Virus record (IMG/VR): IMGVR_UViG_3300003323_000626
Location: 1-62,608 of that record
Strand: one strand, 5' to 3'
Source: a virus
DNA length: 62,608 bases
Part shown: positions 583-59,400 of the stretch, piece after piece
How the letters are laid out: each line of letters opens with the position of its first letter
How positions within the stretch are numbered: the stretch's first letter is position 1
Notes under the pieces: generated by a model
Told to the model about the DNA's origin: nothing
What the model saw: only the letters and a program-made list of their open reading frames with translations
The model's database searches: none
Position numbers and translations under genes: made by a program

Positions 583-2925
583 ATGGCAGCCACTTCCAGT
601 TCAGAGGTCTCAAACTTCATCGCCGAAGCCGAGCGTGTGGCAGGCCCGCGCGATCCCGCGCTGAATAACGAGCCGCGCGTTCCTTTCCAGACGGCGCTGA
701 AGCTGACCCGTGAGCAGGAAACGAAGCTCATCGACCACGCTTTCAACCGGCTGCGGACGCTGATGACCGAGACTGGGCGAGACGTGACGATGACGCCGAA
801 CTGGTGGCAGAATTCGCAGGCTGGCATCAACGCGGTGCTTCAGAGTCAGGGTCTCGCGCCATACGATACGTTCATGGGAAAGCGCAGCCGGTTTGACGCG
901 ACATTTGCCAATGACGTCACTTGGCGCCCGTACACGGTCGGCCCGGACAGCATTTTCTACTCGTCCAATATCCCGGTGCCAGCGGTGCGCCGCGTGTGCC
1001 GGCAGACGATTGCTCGTGCCCAGAACGCTTTCTACGGGGTGGACCCTTGGCTATCCATCCGTCCGGCTCCGGTGCCTGAGTGGGACGAAGAGAACGACGG
1101 CGAGCGGGCCGACCGGATCGAAAAGTTCATCCGGTTCAAGCTGGGCGAGAGCCAGTCGAACTCAAAGGAGTCTGGGCGAAGAGCGATTCGTCGCGCGTTC
1201 ATCCTGGGCGAGTGCCCGGTGAAGACCAGCTACGTCATTCGCGACCAACTGTTCAACACGGAAGCTGTGGTGCTTCACTCGGTGGACGGCCCCGTGCGCG
1301 CCGCGGATGGCAACTTCATCACGCAGGAGGACGAATGGGTGGACGCGCAGGACGGCATGGGCACTCGCGTCCTCAAGCGCGACGGGCAGACGCCGGAGCC
1401 GATTGCGCCCATCTGGCAGACCGCGCCGCTCAATCGCCGGCAAGTGCTCTTTGAAGGCGCTCGCTCGGAGCCGATTTTCTACAAGGACTTTCTTTGCCCG
1501 CTGACGGCGACTGATGTGCAGAGCGCGGATTGCATCGTTCATCTGTACGATAAGCCCGTCTCGGTCTTCGTTGACCTCATCGTGAAGCGCGGCATGGTGG
1601 ACGACACGACGGATGAGCGACTGGCGACAACACAGAAAATGTTGTCCGTCGTGAAGGCGATGGCGTCGAACTCGCCGCAACCGAAGTCCGCGGAGAACGC
1701 GCAGCTTCGTCCTGGCGAGAACTTCGCTGCCGTGCCTCCGGTTGAAACGGGCGGCCCAGTTTCCGAGTTCGCGGAGTTCTACATGTGGTTCGACGCTAAC
1801 GGCGATGGCGTGAATGAGAACATCATGCTCATTTGTGACCGCGTAACGAAGGCTCCGATTTTCTACGACCACGTTGCGAACGTTACGACGGATGGGCTTC
1901 GACCCATTGAAATTGTGCGCGTGAATCCTGTTGAGGGGCGCTGGTACGGCATGGGAATAATGGAGCTTTTTGAGTCCTACGGAACCATCATCGACCTGCT
2001 GGTGAATCGGTGGAATTTCTCGCAGAGCCGGGCGGGTCGCGTGGATTTCTGGCGCGCGACGGACACGCAAGAAGGAGATCGGAATCCCAATCTGATTATG
2101 AACTGGGGCGGAGTGTACACGCCGAAACCTGGCGTGGACCCGGAAAAAATCCTGCACTCTGTCTATCTTGACGACGGAAAGTTTGACAAACTGGAGCGCC
2201 AATTCTCGTTCTTCCTCCAGCTTCTCCAGGCGGAGAGCGGCGTCACGAATGCGAATGACGCGCAGATTGCCGGCCTTGAAAGCTCGGAGCTTGCGACCGG
2301 GATTCTGAACATCGAACAGAGCGGTCAGGAATTGTTTGACCCGTTCCTTCAAGACTTGAAGCCGGGTCTTCAGAACGTCCTAGACCGAGAGGTTGACGTT
2401 ACGCTCTCCAACCTGAATCCGGTGGAAGCGTTTGAGTACCTGAATGGCGACACTATGGGGATTGATAAGATCACACCCAATGATGTCCGCGGCCTCAAAT
2501 TCAAGACTCAGGTGTTGCTCACTGCTCGCAACGACCAGAAGACGCTCCAGACTTCCGCGGCGGTCGCCGCACTAATTGAGAGGTTCTACATGCTCAGCCC
2601 GCAAGTGCAGGCGAAAGTGGCCGACGCCTATCGCCAGCAAATCCGCGTGCTTGATCCGCGTGTAGATACCCGAAAGGCGATTGATCCCGTGCAGGTCACT
2701 GGGCCTGAGCCGGAAGCGCCGCGCAAGAGCGTATCGGTGACAATAAAAGGTGAGCAGCTTTCGCCGGAGCAGCGCGACGAATTGCTCAAGGAAGATTTCG
2801 ACGTTCAGGCGGCAGGGGCTCCGAAGATTCAGAAAATCGGCTCCGTCGAGAAGCTTGGCGAGCGTGAGCCTGCCACCGAATTTACTGCCCAACTCAGTCA
2901 GCGGATGCGAACGAAGGCGAGCTAG
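583..2925 (+). CDS. portal protein
   Basis: A 780-residue protein placed directly after the giant virion gene and before the capsid block. The portal is the dodecameric ring at the special vertex through which DNA is packaged and ejected. Visible support: the size is typical of podoviral portals, the N-terminal half is Trp/Arg-rich alpha-beta (for example the WWQNSQAG, RVCRQTIARAQ and RRAFILGECPVK segments), a wing or crown-like middle follows, and the helical segment GIMELFESYGTIIDLLVNRW at about 457-476 resembles the stem and clip helices of portals that scan for a partner. The C terminus is charged and probably faces the capsid lumen. The ATG start has no clear Shine-Dalgarno site (the leader reads aacaagttattaac). 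A TTGATC sequence lies 38 bases before the start. The call rests on family style and context. Confidence 0.8.
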   Translation: MAATSSSEVSNFIAEAERVAGPRDPALNNEPRVPFQTALKLTREQETKLIDHAFNRLRTLMTETGRDVTMTPNWWQNSQAGINAVLQSQGLAPYDTFMGKRSRFDATFANDVTWRPYTVGPDSIFYSSNIPVPAVRRVCRQTIARAQNAFYGVDPWLSIRPAPVPEWDEENDGERADRIEKFIRFKLGESQSNSKESGRRAIRRAFILGECPVKTSYVIRDQLFNTEAVVLHSVDGPVRAADGNFITQEDEWVDAQDGMGTRVLKRDGQTPEPIAPIWQTAPLNRRQVLFEGARSEPIFYKDFLCPLTATDVQSADCIVHLYDKPVSVFVDLIVKRGMVDDTTDERLATTQKMLSVVKAMASNSPQPKSAENAQLRPGENFAAVPPVETGGPVSEFAEFYMWFDANGDGVNENIMLICDRVTKAPIFYDHVANVTTDGLRPIEIVRVNPVEGRWYGMGIMELFESYGTIIDLLVNRWNFSQSRAGRVDFWRATDTQEGDRNPNLIMNWGGVYTPKPGVDPEKILHSVYLDDGKFDKLERQFSFFLQLLQAESGVTNANDAQIAGLESSELATGILNIEQSGQELFDPFLQDLKPGLQNVLDREVDVTLSNLNPVEAFEYLNGDTMGIDKITPNDVRGLKFKTQVLLTARNDQKTLQTSAAVAALIERFYMLSPQVQAKVADAYRQQIRVLDPRVDTRKAIDPVQVTGPEPEAPRKSVSVTIKGEQLSPEQRDELLKEDFDVQAAGAPKIQKIGSVEKLGEREPATEFTAQLSQRMRTKAS

Positions 2926-45862: not shown

Positions 45863-45880
45863 TTTTCCGCTTGACGGCAA
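45863..45880 (+). promoter_or_regulatory. CTTGACGG element in front of the HTH regulator
   Basis: TTTTCCGCTTGACGGCAA is almost the same as copy 1 (one arm base changed). It lies about 58 bases (core to ATG) before the regulator at 45928, in the 105-base divergent gap to the minus-strand block. A likely site for a regulator acting on its own gene. Confidence 0.5.
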
Positions 45881-45927
45881 AGAATCAGCGGGACTTGCTG
45901 CGGCGGCATGAAGTCAGTCTTTAACGC

Positions 45928-51909: not shown

Positions 51910-52508
51910 ATGACTCCGCTCGCAGTTGGCTTGCTGCTCAAAACCTAAAGCCAATCCCAGCCCTGAAAGAAAAACAGAAAGAAAGATTCTGGAGGAAGGT
52001 CGATATTCGTGGAAAGAAAGAGTGCTGGAATTGGATAGGGTGGCATCAGGGCGGATACGGAAACGTTAATATAAATCGCAGAACATACAGGGCTCATCGT
52101 GTTTCGTATTCAATAGCCAAAGAAACCGACGCGGCCAACGTGTGCGTATTGCACAAATGCGACAACGGTTTATGCGCAAACCCAAATCACTTATTCGCCG
52201 GAACCATCTTGGATAATATAGCGGATATGGTTAGTAAGAGGCGACACGGGCACGGTGCCACCCATTCTTCGGTCACTCGTCCGGAGTGCCGCCCATTCGG
52301 GCGCAGGAACGGTGCCTACACGAGACCCGACAGGAAGCCAATGGGGATTAGCCATGGAATGCACAAGCTTACTGAAAAAGAGGTTAGGCGGATCAGGCGT
52401 CTCTCAAAATCCGGCGTAAGCAGAAAGGAACTCAGGGTTAAATTTGGGGTTACTAAGAGCAATATTGCCTTCATTGTTAATAGAGAGACCTGGAAGCATC
52501 TCAAATGA
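51906..52508 (+). CDS. HNH endonuclease with a helical DNA-binding tail
   Basis: 200 residues. HNH core: ECWNWIGWHQGGYGNVNINR, AHRVSYSIAKETDAANVCVL, HKCDNGLCANPNHLFAGTIL, DNIADM. Catalytic His in VLHKCDN and the N/H of NPNHLF are present. The C-terminal part LTEKEVRRIRRLSKSGVSRK, FGVTKSNIAFIVNRETW is HTH-like. Codons are markedly AT-richer than the neighbours, a sign of recent arrival. It fits exactly between two genes with four-base overlaps, as seen for homing endonucleases in phages. Confidence 0.85.
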   Translation: MNDSARSWLAAQNLKPIPALKEKQKERFWRKVDIRGKKECWNWIGWHQGGYGNVNINRRTYRAHRVSYSIAKETDAANVCVLHKCDNGLCANPNHLFAGTILDNIADMVSKRRHGHGATHSSVTRPECRPFGRRNGAYTRPDRKPMGISHGMHKLTEKEVRRIRRLSKSGVSRKELRVKFGVTKSNIAFIVNRETWKHLK

Positions 52509-54343
52509 AGCAACTCGACGTAGTAAATGCGGTAATTCGTAAGTCCACGTCGGCGTGGTTCGAGACGCACGGGAAAATCTTCACCAAGGATCGCGCAGCC
52601 GGATTGCAGACCCCGAAATGCAATTACCTTCAAAAGAAAGTCCAGCGAGTCATCGACAAGTTTGCTGATCTGGAGCTTCCTGCAAGGATCATCATCCTGA
52701 AGCCGCGTCAAAAGGGATCGACGACTTATGGATGCGCTTTGGACTACACGATGCTCCGGCGCTCCCCGACCTCTGCCGTTGTGATTGGTGGGCAGGTATC
52801 GCAAGTCGGGGAAGCATGGGGTATGTTGCAGACATATTCCAAGTCGGATTCCTTTGACTGGAAGAATACCGGAGAGATAAATTCGAAAGTCGGAACGTGG
52901 TCAAATGGGAGCAAACTGATTCAAGAAACGGCCGGTGACGCGCGCGCCGGAATTGGAGGTACCCATCAGTGCCTCCACTGTTTTGAAGTTGCGCGCTGGG
53001 GAGAGCACGGCGTATCAAACAGCGCGGAAGTTCTCACGAATATCATGAAATGTGTGCCGCTTCTCCCTGGCACTCTTATCAATCTGGAGAGCACGGCAGA
53101 AGGTCAGACCGGAGCATTCTACGGTCACTGGGTCGGCGCAGTTGATGCGGAAGACTTTCTTTCTGGCGCGGTTGAGATCAAGCCGGGCCAGTTCATTCGA
53201 TGCTTCGCAGCATGGTTTCAGTTTGAGGATTCCGCAATTCGCCTCACGGAAGACCAAAAAAAGGAAATAGAAAACACGCTTGACGCGGAGCCGTGGTACG
53301 ACGGTGAAAAGGAGTTAATCGAGAAATATGGATCAGTGACAGAGGATGGGGTGCGCCGATTGGGTGACATCGTTGAAGGATTTGACCTCTGGGAGCAGCT
53401 TTGTTGGCGCCGCTGGAGCATTGAGGTGGAGTGCAAAAAGGACCGGGGAAAATTTGAGCGTGACAGTCCTCATAGCTGGCGCACGGCATTCCAGAAGTCT
53501 GGCAATCAGCGTTTCAGTGCGTCCGGATTGGCTACAATACGCAAGCGTGCGTCTAGGGTTCTCGCTCAGTACGGCATACTTGAAGAAACAAAAGAAGCCC
53601 TTGTTTCATTTCGACCAACCTCCGAGCAGGAGGCGAAAATCATTTTGTTTGAGAAGCCAATTCGCGGATGCCGATACATTGTTGGCGTTGATCCAATGAC
53701 CGGCGCAACGCAGGCGGGCGGCGTGGACCCTGATTACCATGCGGTGTTTGCGATGAGGGATGGATATTATGACGGGAAAGGCGTGTGGCATCCACCTGCA
53801 ACGGCGGCGCGCGTGGTTCCGTGTCGATGGGATATTCCGATTCTTGAGCCAGAGATTTTTAAACTGGCAAGATTCTTTGGGCCGGCGAACGGGAGGGGGT
53901 GCACGATTGTTGTGGAGATGAACCAGGATCGTGGCGTGACGGAGCTTTTGAAGCTTCGATCGGCTAATCTGTATCTGCGCGAGCAATTCAATCATGCAGA
54001 ACAGAAGACAACGAAAGCATATGGCTTCATGACCAACGAGCGCACTCGCGAGAACCTGATTGAGCGATTAGCGGGAGCTATCAGAAACGTCGGTGAGGCC
54101 GGAAACGGAATCGACATCTACGACACGACTGCGCTGGACGAGTGCGACAACTTCGTGCTGAAACGCAATGGTCGCTCAGAGGCATCGGAAGGAGGGCATG
54201 ATGACTCGGTGTTCGGGATCGCTCTCCCGCTGGAGGTCATCGCTCACGGCACTACGTGGTATCCTCCGGTTGTGAATAACTGGTACACCCCTCCCGACCT
54301 GCGACGCAATACCGCGCAGCGCATGCCTTCGGCCTACTCTTAA
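52505..54343 (+). CDS. terminase large subunit
   Basis: 612 residues, the ATP-driven packaging motor. ATPase: RIIILKPRQKGSTTYGCALD at about 61-80 (deviant Walker A), Walker B-like CLHCFEVARWGE, and coupling motif LESTAEG. Nuclease: VGVDPMTGAT at about 393, IVVEMNQDRG at about 471, SEGGHDDSVFG at about 560, the acidic triad of TerL RNase H folds. A conserved phage TerL pattern with no intein. Small terminase was not identified upstream. Start overlaps the HNH stop (ATGA). Confidence 0.9.
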   Translation: MKQLDVVNAVIRKSTSAWFETHGKIFTKDRAAGLQTPKCNYLQKKVQRVIDKFADLELPARIIILKPRQKGSTTYGCALDYTMLRRSPTSAVVIGGQVSQVGEAWGMLQTYSKSDSFDWKNTGEINSKVGTWSNGSKLIQETAGDARAGIGGTHQCLHCFEVARWGEHGVSNSAEVLTNIMKCVPLLPGTLINLESTAEGQTGAFYGHWVGAVDAEDFLSGAVEIKPGQFIRCFAAWFQFEDSAIRLTEDQKKEIENTLDAEPWYDGEKELIEKYGSVTEDGVRRLGDIVEGFDLWEQLCWRRWSIEVECKKDRGKFERDSPHSWRTAFQKSGNQRFSASGLATIRKRASRVLAQYGILEETKEALVSFRPTSEQEAKIILFEKPIRGCRYIVGVDPMTGATQAGGVDPDYHAVFAMRDGYYDGKGVWHPPATAARVVPCRWDIPILEPEIFKLARFFGPANGRGCTIVVEMNQDRGVTELLKLRSANLYLREQFNHAEQKTTKAYGFMTNERTRENLIERLAGAIRNVGEAGNGIDIYDTTALDECDNFVLKRNGRSEASEGGHDDSVFGIALPLEVIAHGTTWYPPVVNNWYTPPDLRRNTAQRMPSAYS

Positions 54344-54579: not shown

Positions 54580-54993
54580 ATGGCAAACCTCAACAAAGTC
54601 ATGCTCATCGGCAACCTTACCCGTGATCCTGAGTTGCGGGTCCTGCCGAAAGGAACCGCCATCTGCCAGTTCTCGCTGGCCGTTAATCGCAAGTGGAGAA
54701 ACGAGGCAGGTCAGGATCAGGAGGAAGTGACATATGTGGATTGCGAGGCGTGGGCGAAGGGCGGCGAGACCATTGCCAAGTACTGCACCAAGGGTCGCCC
54801 GCTGTTCGTCGAAGGCCGTCTGCGCCTCGACCAGTGGGAGGACAAGACCACCAAGGAAAAGCGCAGTCGCATGAAAGTTGTGGTCGAGAACTTCCAGTTC
54901 CTTGGCTCCGGGCAGGATCGTCCGGCGCAGGCTCCGGCCACAGCAGGGCACAAGGGGCATGCCGACGATGGAGATCACGACATCGAATTCTAG
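54580..54993 (+). CDS. ssb: single-stranded DNA-binding protein
   Basis: 137 residues. MANLNKVMLIGNLTRDPELR is the classic OB-fold start; then CQFSLAVNRKWRNEAGQDQE, VDCEAWAKGGETIAKYCTKG, LFVEGRLRLDQWEDKTTKEK, VVVENFQFLG. The C-terminal tail ends DDGDHDIEF, an acidic tip like bacterial SSB (which ends DDIPF) that recruits partners. The tip lacks the usual final Pro, so binding to host partners may be altered. It is followed directly by the element at 54995. Confidence 0.9.
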   Translation: MANLNKVMLIGNLTRDPELRVLPKGTAICQFSLAVNRKWRNEAGQDQEEVTYVDCEAWAKGGETIAKYCTKGRPLFVEGRLRLDQWEDKTTKEKRSRMKVVVENFQFLGSGQDRPAQAPATAGHKGHADDGDHDIEF

Positions 54994-54994
54994 C

Positions 54995-55012
54995 TTTTCC
55001 GCTTGACGGAAA
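54995..55012 (+). promoter_or_regulatory. CTTGACG palindromic element, copy identical to 2928
   Basis: TTTTCCGCTTGACGGAAA, the same 18 bases as at 2928, two bases after the SSB stop. It stands at the head of the noncoding RNA region. An identical element after two unrelated stop codons suggests a functional promoter or processing site. Confidence 0.55.
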
Positions 55013-55420
55013 CGGCGCTCCTATTACGGTGCCTGTGTTCTTTGAATTTCTCCGCTTTGCCCACGTCGTCGGAAAGGCCCACAGGTCTTGTCCAGAACCT
55101 TAAGCGTGCAGGTGGGGCGGGAAAATATTTCCAGCCAACTAGCAGGGTGCGCCTGCACATGGTGGGAGCAAACTGAACGCTGACGGGTGGACCCCGTTCG
55201 GCGCCATGTCTAAGGCAATAACCCGGAAACGGGCCGCGCCCCACTCGGTCGTAGTTCCGCAACAGCGGTGCGAATACCACGCGCAAGGTACTCCGTTGCG
55301 CGCATGGGCCTCTCGGTGCTGGAATACTCAGGCTGGCGGTGACGTCAGCCGACCCCGCGATGGTAGCGCCTACGCTTCCCCTAAAAAGGTTAAATGCGGC
55401 GCGAGAGTGCGGGGAATAAT

Positions 55421-55498
55421 GTCGGGATAGCTCAAGCGTAGAGCCGGAATGGGTAACACCAAACCGAGATTCGGATTCACAAACCGATCCCGACGCCA
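55421..55498 (+). tRNA. tRNA-like element with odd anticodon arm
   Basis: 7-bp acceptor stem GTCGGGA (55421-55427) with TCCCGAC (55488-55494), then G and CCA (55496-55498). D-arm GCTC/GAGC with loop AAGCGTA. T-arm TCGGA/ACCGA, loop TTCACAA, with an A-A mismatch at its closing pair. The anticodon arm has no standard 5-bp stem and 7-base loop: CGG..TGG pairs with CCA..CCG around GTAACA. Length 78, including CCA. An amino acid cannot be assigned. It may be decayed or a non-decoding tRNA-like RNA. Confidence 0.45.
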
Positions 55499-55592
55499 AT
55501 TTCATGTTCCATGGGCGGTCGGTATCGAGCGGCGTGGATTAGCTACCCGCGCTCGCCCTGAAGTCTTGCGCAAAGATCAAGGGCCGCACAAA

Positions 55593-55620
55593 GCGGGTTC
55601 GACTCCCGTATGGTTCACCA
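55593..55620 (+). tRNA. isolated tRNA T-arm with CCA end
   Basis: GCGGG, TTCGACT, CCCGT form a canonical T-arm (with a G-U), then ATGGTTC, A, CCA at 55618-55620. The matching 5' acceptor strand, GAACCAT, is not found upstream in the 200 bases searched. It is either a fragment, a tmRNA-type end, or a split RNA. No tmRNA start (GGGG...TTCGAC) is seen. Confidence 0.35.
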
Positions 55621-56038
55621 CTTTCCCTTGCTGCATTGAAAGTCATCTATCATGATGTCGCCGGAAACGGCTTAGGTTCAGTCGGGGCGTTCTTTGATTT
55701 TGGGTCTGCGCGGGTGAGCGCGGAGAACTGGCTTAGGGGCGCATATTCTGCACCTGCTCGTGGGGAATCACGAGTGCTCCGAAGCCACTTTTCCGCCCTC
55801 ATCCAAGGTGAGCGCGGAATTGAGAGGCGGCAGACGTGCCGTAATTGTGTGACCTTAAACGCAGTGGGTGCAAGCGATGTGACCGTAACGCGGCGCGGGC
55901 GGCTTGCGAATAGATCAAAGCCATGATCCCTCTCAATCCTGCCCTTACCCCCTGAGTGGGGCGCAGACTTTGCCCTGCCTACCCGATGACGTTCACGATC
56001 ACTTGTGGATATTAGGCGCCTGGTGGGGCAATCCTTTT

Positions 56039-56139
56039 GGGGAGGCGGCGTGGATTGGACACGCACTGAAACGTATCCGTGCCAGCAATGGTCTATGTGG
56101 TAAATCGGTAGCCGGTATCAAGCCCGGCCCTCTCCGCCA
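56039..56139 (+). tRNA. long tRNA-like element
   Basis: Acceptor GGGGAGG (56039-56045) pairs with CCTCTCC (56129-56135, one G-U), then G and CCA (56137-56139). D-arm GCGT/ACGC, loop GGATTGGAC. T-arm GCCGG/CCGGC with an 8-base loop TATCAAGC. Between D- and T-arms 46 bases: GCAC..GA pairs with TC..GTGC around AACGTA, not a standard anticodon arm. Total 101 bases. No anticodon assigned. Confidence 0.4.
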
Positions 56140-56151
56140 ATTTCGGATCGC

Positions 56152-56227
56152 GATGCAGTGGCTCGAATGACTAGGCTTCTGGCCGCAAACCAGACTTATG
56201 CCGGTTTGATTCCGGCCTGCATCTCCA
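56152..56227 (+). tRNA. tRNA-Cys (anticodon GCA)
   Basis: Acceptor GATGCAG (56152-56158) and CTGCATC (56217-56223), discriminator T and encoded CCA (56225-56227). Anticodon stem TCTGG/CCAGA around loop CCGCAAA, anticodon GCA. T-arm GCCGG, TTTGATT, CCGGC. D-stem short (GCT/GGC). The U73 discriminator is the Cys identity base, which supports the call. Odd point: position 33 is C where U is nearly universal. A 76-base element. Confidence 0.75.
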
Positions 56228-56343
56228 ATGATCTTCCCTAAACCACAGTTCACGAACTCGGATCAGCGATTGTAGTGACAGGTGCAGGCGGTAACGCCCA
56301 GAAGGTCTGATACACCGGATGGACTAATGCTCGCTGGGGATTG

Positions 56344-56379
56344 AAGGCCGCTCTCTCACGGGGGCGGCCTTTTCCTTTT
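56344..56379 (+). terminator. rho-independent terminator of the RNA locus
   Basis: AAGGCCGC (56344-56351) and GCGGCCTT (56364-56371) form an 8-bp stem with a 12-base loop, followed by TTTCCTTTT. The T-run and high-GC stem are typical. It lies 40 bases before the giant gene and closes the RNA locus. Confidence 0.8.
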
Positions 56380-56418
56380 GACACTGGGTTATGCGCCCCA
56401 TAGCCACCTGCAATCGCC

Positions 56419-59400
56419 ATGCCGCCCACACCATATGGGGCGCCGCGCCGAGCGGCCCCGTCCTACATTGTTCCGCCCGACGAAGAGGACAATGTGGAGT
56501 CGCCGGAGGAAGTGGTTCAGCGGCGCTCGCCGGTCCCAACCGGAACAACTGGGGGCATCACCGTGCAGCAGGCCGGAACTTGGGATCGCCCGGCGCCGGG
56601 CCGATTGGATGATGACCCCGAAGTTCGTGCCGCGCAGTCAGCCGAGCGTGCTCAGCAGGCGTTTGAAGACAAGCAGCGTGCGGACAATCCGTTCATTTAC
56701 TCGGGTGCCCTGAAGTCTCTCGCGAAAGAGGGTGGTCGTCGCTACATCGACGCCGCGGTTCGCCAAGGTGATCGCCAGTATCAGCAGCAGGTGCAGTCTG
56801 AGCGCCAAGCGGCCAAGCTGGATACGGCGGCGTACAACTCCAGAATGGAGGCCCGGTTTCGCGGCAATGGCCAGCAGTTCTATACCGATCCGCTGACCAA
56901 GCGGGTCATGCCGGTCATTGAACCGGATACCGGGAAAGCCCTGTATCACCAGACCGATTGGGCACCGTCCACTCATCCCAAGACAGGGCTCGCCGTATTT
57001 GAGCGGCGCGACAAGTATGGGCAGCGCCAGTACAAGCGCCCGACTCTCAGCGACTCGGTGGACCCGAGTGACGAGTACCTGTACGCGGACATGGGTGACG
57101 GCGAATCCACGCCGTACATCACGAAAGCGGAAGCAGCGAAGTCTCGGGATGTATCTCTCGCCAAGATTGGGCTCGCTGCGCTGAAGAAACAGCGGACCAC
57201 GCAGGCCCAAGAATCACTCGCCCGGATGTCCGCCGTCGATCAGGCTATAGACGCCGAGGTGCTGGAGCACAATCAGGCGAAGGATGACATTCAGCGGCAG
57301 ATTGATGAACTCTCGGCCAAGGCCACCAATTCGGGTGACACTGATATTAATCGTCAGGCTTACCAGTCTCGCATCGAGCAACTGAACGGTGAACTTCAGA
57401 AGCACATCGACGCGACGCACGCCGGATCGGAATTGATGCGCCGGCAGCGGTTGTCAAAGAAGTCGATCGCGCTCCATCGCGCGCAGTCGGCATTGGATGC
57501 GTACCAGATTCAAAAGCAGGAGATTGAGGCACGGCTTCGCGGTCAGGGCGTTCCGGAGTCGGATTTTGAAAAAGACCCGGTGTATCGATCGAACCTGGAG
57601 GGCATGCGCGCGATGGAGGAAGGTGTGCGCGGGGGTCAATCGGCGCTGAAGCAGGAGGAGGCGCTTAATAATCGCCTGTCCGGTGCGCGTTCTTTTGACA
57701 CGAAGCTTTCTCCGGCCGAGGAGCAGGCTTTCCAGCAGTGGAGGGCGCGCATGGCCCCGAATGATTCCGGGGCTGACTATGATCTTCGCGGCGCATTCAA
57801 AGCGGGACTATCTCCCGGTCCTGACGGACACTGGCCAGACACATTCAAGAAGCCGAATCATCCGACTTTCTCCAATGAGTCGGTGTACGCCAAGGACGCG
57901 CCGGAGCGGGCCGGAAGATGGAATGGCAATCAGTTTGTTCCTCCGAATGACTTGGCTGCTGGCGAGCCCGGAGCGGCAGCAGCGCGAGGCGTAGATAGAA
58001 TCGGCGGCGTAGGCATTCAGGAATTCGCTCGCCGATACGGCTCCGGAGAGGGCGAGGTTCGCCCCGATTCATTGCTGAGGCTCAATCAGCGTTCTCGCGA
58101 GATTGATGAAACGCTCGCCTCCGACCAGAGCACGATCGACGACAAGCTGCGTAATTCGCTCACGCAGGAGAAGCAGTACGTCGATGCTCTCTACAAGCAG
58201 CGCCTAGCGCGGCTCCCTCCCGAGGATCAGCAGCGGGTGCAAGACGCGGTGGCGCTTGCGAATGAGGGTGGCGCAAAGACTGCCGCCAAGTCATTCGCCC
58301 GCGGCGCTTCTGCTGAAGGACTATACGCTGCATCAGAAGGACTTTCCCGATTCCTTGAAATGGCCGGCAACCTCGGTGCAACTCCCGCTGGTGTCGGCGC
58401 AGCCGGAAAGTGGTACGCAGACGCCACCAAGAAGGTGCGCGAGGACATCCGCAAGGCGCTGCCGATTGACGAGAAAGTGGCCCAAGGTCTCAACAGCCAG
58501 ATTTCTCAGGGCCTCGGGCAAGCCGCAGGAACGCTTCCATTGGCGGCTCTTGGCCCCGAAGCGTTGGCGGGTGCTTCCGTTGGCCAGATTTACGACGAGG
58601 CATATCAGGATGCCAAGCAGTCGGGAGCCTCGGATGAGCAGGCTCATTCGGCTGCGGTGAAATATCTGCCGGCGGCGGCTCTGGATTATCTGTCCAACGA
58701 ATTGATCGTCGGTCGGATTATGAAGCCGTTGGTTGGCCGCGCCACGGTTGGGATGATCCTGAAGGACATTCTCACATCGGCTGCTTCCGAGGGCATTACC
58801 GAAGGTGCTCAGCAAGCCTACCTGAATCAGATCGCGTCAAAGCTGGAGGGATACGACCCGAACCGGCCATTCGACCAAGAGGTGTATGACTCAATGCTCG
58901 TTGGCGCGGTCACGGGTGGCGTTGCCACTGCGGCAGGACAAGCCGGACATGCTGCGATGGAGCGCGACACGCAGGGCGGCAACGTAGAGAATCCGCGGCA
59001 GCCAGCGCCGCCATCGGACCGTACTGGCGACGCTGGCGACGTCTCCGAGATTCAGGCGGCGGAAGCAGAATTCCAGCGCCGACTCTCAGAGCTTACACCT
59101 GCAGAGCGTGCACAGGTTGAGGCCATGGCGGCGGAACCTGTCGCGACCCCTCCGAAGACTGCGGCCGAAGCGGCGCGTGAACTCGGGCAGCCGCGCGTGG
59201 CGCGATCGGCGGAGGATGTGGCCGGAATTTTTGAGCGCAATGCCCCGCAGGTTGAAGAGCCACGAGCGCCCATCAAATCAGCCGCCGATGCGGCGCAGAC
59301 GCTTGAGCAGGTGCGCGCTACGGAATATTCGCCTGGCGAGCTTCGTCCATCAACGGCTGAAGAGGCCGCGGCCGTTCTCTCGCGCGAAGTTCCGCAGGTG

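Follow-up and report, generated by a model that had tools for sequence, protein, structure and literature searches.

Comparative sequence analysis identifies positions 55130-55338 of the window (the whole 62.6-kb virus record analysed here) as one member of a previously uncatalogued family of phage RNAs, which are about 130-200 letters in size with a core of about 140 nt. Comparison of its members shows the family and its fold, a single copy per carrier record, a varied location and a patchy presence among phages. A search of the window and its relatives against Rfam 15 gave no family match apart from tRNA and, in L132, an int-alpA unrelated to this RNA; in the window this covariance search, proposed as a check in the original prediction, returned tRNA alone. 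Relative to Rfam 15 and the literature searched, the RNA family is new.

The RNA lies within a noncoding locus (54994-56418) bounded by SSB, which ends at 54993, and by a giant frame starting at 56419; a terminase-like gene (52505-54343, with a weak PHROG terminase match) is immediately upstream of SSB. The original prediction saw no support for coding between SSB and the giant gene, and we agree, as neither gene families nor syntenic frames support coding in this interval. A coding reading of the RNA is rejected: no conserved frame was found, and the family motif falls within a clear ORF only in L075. It had also been proposed that the locus could be a new RNA with tRNA-like parts. A new structured RNA is indeed present, but as a compact module and not as a 1.4-kb molecule: the conserved part is 55130-55338, which elsewhere stands without the rest of the locus. 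The locus is thus not one single RNA, and since most carriers have no tRNA nearby, the tRNA-like elements are separate neighbours. Searches by blastn revealed no similarity of the window locus to INPHARED or PLSDB, or of three family members to INPHARED.

Recovery and distribution of the family

Phage B (L004) encodes a giant protein up to 64% identical and a terminase-like protein 55% identical to those of the window, and the corresponding slot ahead of its giant gene contains 53 nt that are 81% identical to 55064-55116, with a tRNA-Thr inside. When portal relatives were searched with the phage B slot a third copy (35 nt, 89%) was found in phage C (L024), at a genome position unrelated to the slot in the window and phage B. 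The three sequences have in common a GTGCG hairpin loop and the words CTGAA, TCTAAGGCA and GGGCCTC, with helices in which both strands have changed. Further portal relatives, identified by a profile search, added L053 and L054, in which the RNA directly follows the portal stop codon, and L064, in which it is one gene further. Covariance model R1 was built from these six copies, those of the window, B, C and L054 being entered with variable inserts trimmed for structural alignment. Given the untrimmed sequences, R1 recovers each of the six (47-136 bits), and it also finds an untrained seventh member in G024 (phage D; 46 bits, E 1.8e-8).

A motif based only on sequence (CTGAA, TAAGGCA and GGCCTCnCGG with free gaps, without helix information) matches at least 120 viral contigs, and the family is larger than the matches listed. 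Of 77 viral motif contigs put to R1, 76 are confirmed, all except L144, and so are none of seven motif matches in bacterial and archaeal genomes (L197-L203); by the model, L144 and these seven are chance matches. L163 and L170 were confirmed separately as members. Matches from the first motif scans lay in coding DNA by chance, except for phages B and C. Among the matches listed, the extracted cores form 21 groups at 90% identity, including the false L144, and about 24 lineages when the window, B, C and D are counted. The window copy is among the weaker members (47 bits with R1 and 59 bits with model R2, unfiltered; it was in the training of both), although by far the best match in its region, and its homology to phage B is independently backed by synteny and blastn. 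A possible second copy in the window (GCGGCGTGG..CTGAA near 55528 and 56045) is unsupported by the unfiltered model.

Each carrier record examined contains a single copy. The largest clade and several others carry the RNA upstream of terminase genes, in sense orientation. An extended -10 word of its own, TGnTAnnnT, is present 2-6 nt ahead of its start in at least six lineages (the L089/L087/L081 clade, L080/L096, L117, L136, L137 and L085), where 0.003 would be expected per locus. In L053, L054, L064, L163, L170 and probably L083 it starts a few nt past a stop codon, the preceding genes encoding portal, major head protein, a protease-like protein and others. The tRNA-Thr of phage B has its CCA end 4 nt ahead of the RNA, and a terminator is directly behind the RNA. 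Each of these three arrangements would place the ends of the RNA at helix P1 or close to it. The positions of these signals strongly suggest that the RNA is its own transcription unit, from about P1, in several lineages and directly follows a late-gene stop codon in others.

Other neighbours include endolysin genes (L132 and L136) and HNH or methyltransferase genes (L136, L137 and L075); HNH endonuclease genes directly adjoin the RNA in L136 (8906-9379) and L137 (5228-5803). In phage D the RNA is in frame within an open frame (L075, 1911-2594), situated like a linker between two parts of a 228-aa product for which a homologue was sought and none was found. The large terminase gene of L117 (1105-2973, minus strand) appears to contain an insert resembling an intein (CHPAGTPVLMADGSEKPIEQIQ...VHNC).

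Presence is patchy. A convincing R2 match is lacking in 31 of 38 portal-relative records, many of which are fragments (G037, counted among the 31, has a marginal score of 14.6 bits with R2), and the RNA is absent from whole genomes of database phages whose terminase is 69-71% identical.

Layout of the window locus

The features of the locus, all on the plus strand, are as follows.

54995-55015, +: promoter-like palindrome with CTTGAC (21-nt TTTTCCGCTTGACGGAAACGG), repeated in the window
55037-55044, +: boxA-like GTTCTTTG, with an identical word at the matching place in phages B and C
55064-55116, +: element shared with phage B
55130-55338, +: the new-family RNA, with a conserved core that closes near 55323
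55131-55135, +: P1 5' strand CCAGC, pairing with GCTGG at 55318-55322 (from the comparison with B and C)
55142-55156, +: P2 hairpin GCAGG-GTGCG-CCTGC; loop (A/G/T)TGCG near-invariant
55162-55166, +: P3 5' strand GTGGG, pairing with CCCAC at 55240-55244 and enclosing CTGAA and TCTAAGGCA
55173-55177, +: CTGAA, invariant in the family alignment
55209-55217, +: TCTAAGGCA (TAAGGCA invariant), with AGGC as a possible partner of the GCCT within 55306-55312
55280-55303, +: S2 hairpin CGCGCAA...TTGCGCG (family alignment)
55306-55312, +: GGGCCTC (GGCCT invariant in the family alignment)
55421-55498, +: tRNA-like element A, with a perfect 7-bp acceptor, GCCA end and abnormal anticodon arm
55507-55620, +: tRNA-like element B, with a perfect T-arm and a CCA end; its 5' half resembles a tRNA only if an insert of 42 nt is assumed
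55621-56038, +: strongly folded stretch, no relative found
55689-55696, +: second boxA-like GTTCTTTG (word match)
56039-56139, +: tRNA-like element C, CCA-ended, with a Leu-like D-arm and distorted T-arm
56152-56227, +: tRNA-Cys (GCA), found by ARAGORN and Rfam
56343-56376, +: terminator-like stem and T-run (terminator scan)

The identical promoter-like palindrome noted earlier at 54995 was confirmed: TTTTCCGCTTGACGGAAACGG, which includes the -35-like word CTTGAC, recurs exactly at 2928-2948 and with 3 mismatches at 45863-45883, with 0 copies expected. A (C/T)TTGAC word is found at the corresponding place in phages B and C, ahead of their boxA, and phage B contains four further copies of its own version of the palindrome (TTCCCGCTTGAC...). 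The repeated palindromes are probably a phage promoter set. The two boxA-like GTTCTTTG sites (55037 and 55689) had been overlooked; the boxA of rRNA leaders is GCTCTTTA. At the end of the locus, where a strong terminator had been predicted, there is a terminator-like stem with a T-run (56343-56372), the number of terminators in the scan not being above chance.

The locus had been said to contain four CCA-ended tRNA-like elements, of which only the tRNA-Cys is standard, and both statements hold. Only 56152-56227 is accepted as a four-arm tRNA fold by ARAGORN and Rfam, and elements A-C were run against tRNA models with none accepted. Four CCA-ended elements (55421-55498, those ending at 55620 and 56139, and tRNA-Cys) reach the threshold of at least 12 in a custom score of acceptor, T-arm and CCA, compared with 0.41 expected, and none of 300 dinucleotide shuffles reaches four. 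The three aberrant elements therefore exceed chance, and we read them as decayed or unusual tRNAs, element B resembling a tRNA whose anticodon region holds a 42-nt insert. In the window they and the tRNA-Cys are downstream of the RNA, and in phage B a normal tRNA-Thr is just upstream. In L018/L019 a tRNA-Met (2602-2676) is located between the terminase-like and giant genes, the slot of the RNA locus in the window and phage B.

Two stretches, 55013-55420 and 55621-56038, had been described as unexplained and rich in stems. The first now contains the new RNA, and its folding differs from that of dinucleotide shuffles by a z of only -1.3. The description as rich in stems is apt for the second, which folds far below shuffles (z = -7.45), has the second boxA-like site near its start and may be another structured RNA, although relatives of 55338-56150 were looked for and none were found. 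Noncoding sequence upstream of the phage C RNA (L024, about 2170-2480, minus strand) also has stems (CCTGCC..CCAGC / GCTGG.CAGG).

The order of promoter word, boxA, untranslated RNA, tRNAs, second boxA and terminator is like that of rRNA and tRNA operons with boxA antitermination, and suggests, by analogy, Nus-type antitermination of an untranslated transcript. The window RNA is not an rRNA, however, and most family members have no boxA-led transcript; boxA-like words are present in the window, and any action of NusB/NusE is putative. The window member would lie within a presumed boxA-led transcript together with tRNA-Cys and the decayed tRNAs.

Fold and covariation

Alignment of relatives, the other comparative check proposed at the outset, revealed conserved stems with compensatory changes. 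In an alignment of 29 members fitted to the structure, 95.3% of paired cells are standard pairs, and 248 cells are double-changed (compensatory) compared with 78.6+-8.4 after shuffling. Changes on both sides occur in 25 of the 29 pairs, and covariation scores 0.741, compared with 0.21 when shuffled and at most 0.13 with partners slid. Because the alignment was fitted to the structure, the count was redone on 16 lineages (less than 85% identical) outside R1, in which pairing is 94.2% compared with 67.4+-1.5% for shuffles. An unguided MAFFT alignment analysed by RNAalifold recovered P1, part of P2 and P4.

The window contains all the family words (the RTGCG loop, CTGAA, TAAGGCA and GGCCT). Its P1 is poorly scored by the model itself; P1 covaries in the family. 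The P4 hairpin, which precedes the P1 3' strand, is found in most members and is absent or poor in the window and phage B. RNAalifold also proposes, from the unguided alignment, an invariant AGGC/GCCU pairing of TAAGGCA with GGCCTC. This candidate core pseudoknot is plausible but unproven, because the letters never vary. An H-type pseudoknot formed by a strand S1 looked convincing by eye in the window, B, C and several lineages, and was discarded since its best-match sum was not above shuffles (69/500). The core of phage C (AACTGAAAC-TCTAAGG) resembles the AACTGAAACATCTAAG motif of 23S rRNA domain I (L044, 2649) within a similar stem. Mimicry of 23S rRNA, from the match of AACTGAAAC-TCTAAG to AACTGAAACATCTAAG, was not adopted and is kept as a lead: the match was noticed post hoc and scores 14 compared with 10.3 for shuffled queries, 0.5% of which reach it.

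Possible roles of the RNA

We consider a trans-acting, protein-binding accessory structured RNA to be the best explanation, and slightly favour it on the comparative evidence. The compact RNA closed by P1 and bearing P2, P3, S2, mostly P4 and a likely AGGC/GCCU pseudoknot (UAAGGCA/GGCCUC) would mature to a discrete molecule that acts in trans by its shape. Its most likely partner would be a host or phage protein or ribonucleoprotein, for which it may serve as a decoy, inhibitor or cofactor, giving an optional advantage and not an essential step. In the window phage it would be made in a boxA-led, rRNA-type antiterminated transcript with tRNA-Cys and the decayed tRNAs, and freed through tRNA processing and the terminator. 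An accessory trans-acting RNA is favoured because one would expect an essential packaging part to be less patchy and a cis-regulator to have a constant target. Counting against it, members are often near head and packaging genes, a location that could reflect a specific role, phage D has an in-frame copy and, as noted, many of the RNA-less records are fragments.

It is possible, though we think it unlikely, that the RNA acts in cis, as a processive antitermination, mRNA-stabilising or riboswitch-like element situated upstream of late operons or within 3' UTRs. HK022 put and Bacillus EAR are antitermination RNAs that act in cis and are likewise compact, structured and near operon starts. The sense orientation before terminase genes or right behind portal and capsid genes would fit such a role, as would the upstream boxA in the window and phages B and C. 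However, neither the downstream gene nor the terminator is constant, promoter words place the transcription start at the RNA itself in several lineages, and the RNA of L132/L136 adjoins lysis genes and an opposite-strand HNH gene.

A packaging or head-assembly RNA acting on the portal/terminase motor, like the small phage pRNA of phi29, is more doubtful. Most lineages have terminase, portal or major head neighbours, yet the RNA is absent in phages with close terminase or portal proteins, and it also occurs by lysis, HNH and methyltransferase genes. Carriers possess small-terminase-like genes and ordinary large terminases, and the family has no Rfam match. We regard as improbable that the RNA is self-processing or mobile, in the manner of a small ribozyme or an intron-like element passing from phage to phage and perhaps capable of self-cleavage or self-splicing. 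Varied insertion places, the in-frame copy of phage D, the HNH genes adjoining the L136 and L137 copies and the invariant, ribozyme-like unpaired words are what it would predict, but in most lineages neither a target duplication nor an encoded mobility gene is recognisable, and own promoters in several lineages point to a gene and not an insertion.

That the whole 1.4-kb locus is a giant ornate RNA resembling the GOLLD/ROOL cages, with tRNAs as cargo, is very improbable and this identity was rejected: the locus is phage-borne and structured, its 55621-56038 stretch is very stable, the RNA is near tRNA genes in the window and phage B and tRNAs can occur in the GOLLD linker (PMC12286853), but the GOLLD model (RF02032) has no match in the whole window record at E<=10, no Rfam 15 family other than tRNA, ROOL included, has one in the window, and the family core measures about 140 nt compared with 400-800 nt, usually without tRNAs nearby.

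Taken as a whole, the broader reading is one that we judge evenly balanced: a new virus-borne class of functional RNA, widespread in uncultured tailed phages as a single-copy accessory, whose three-dimensional fold would enable it to act in trans on the host, on host defences or else on phage assembly. The window phage may have brought this RNA into a boxA-led tRNA transcript. To our knowledge few structured RNA classes are mainly phage-carried, namely GOLLD, ROOL and pRNA. The family described here is small, sharply conserved and strongly covarying, is present in more than 100 viral contigs and about 24 lineages among the matches listed, and is absent from Rfam 15. It offers a defined molecule for studying how accessory RNAs serve phages. 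Both the motif and the model allow others to find further members, ideally in a cultured phage.
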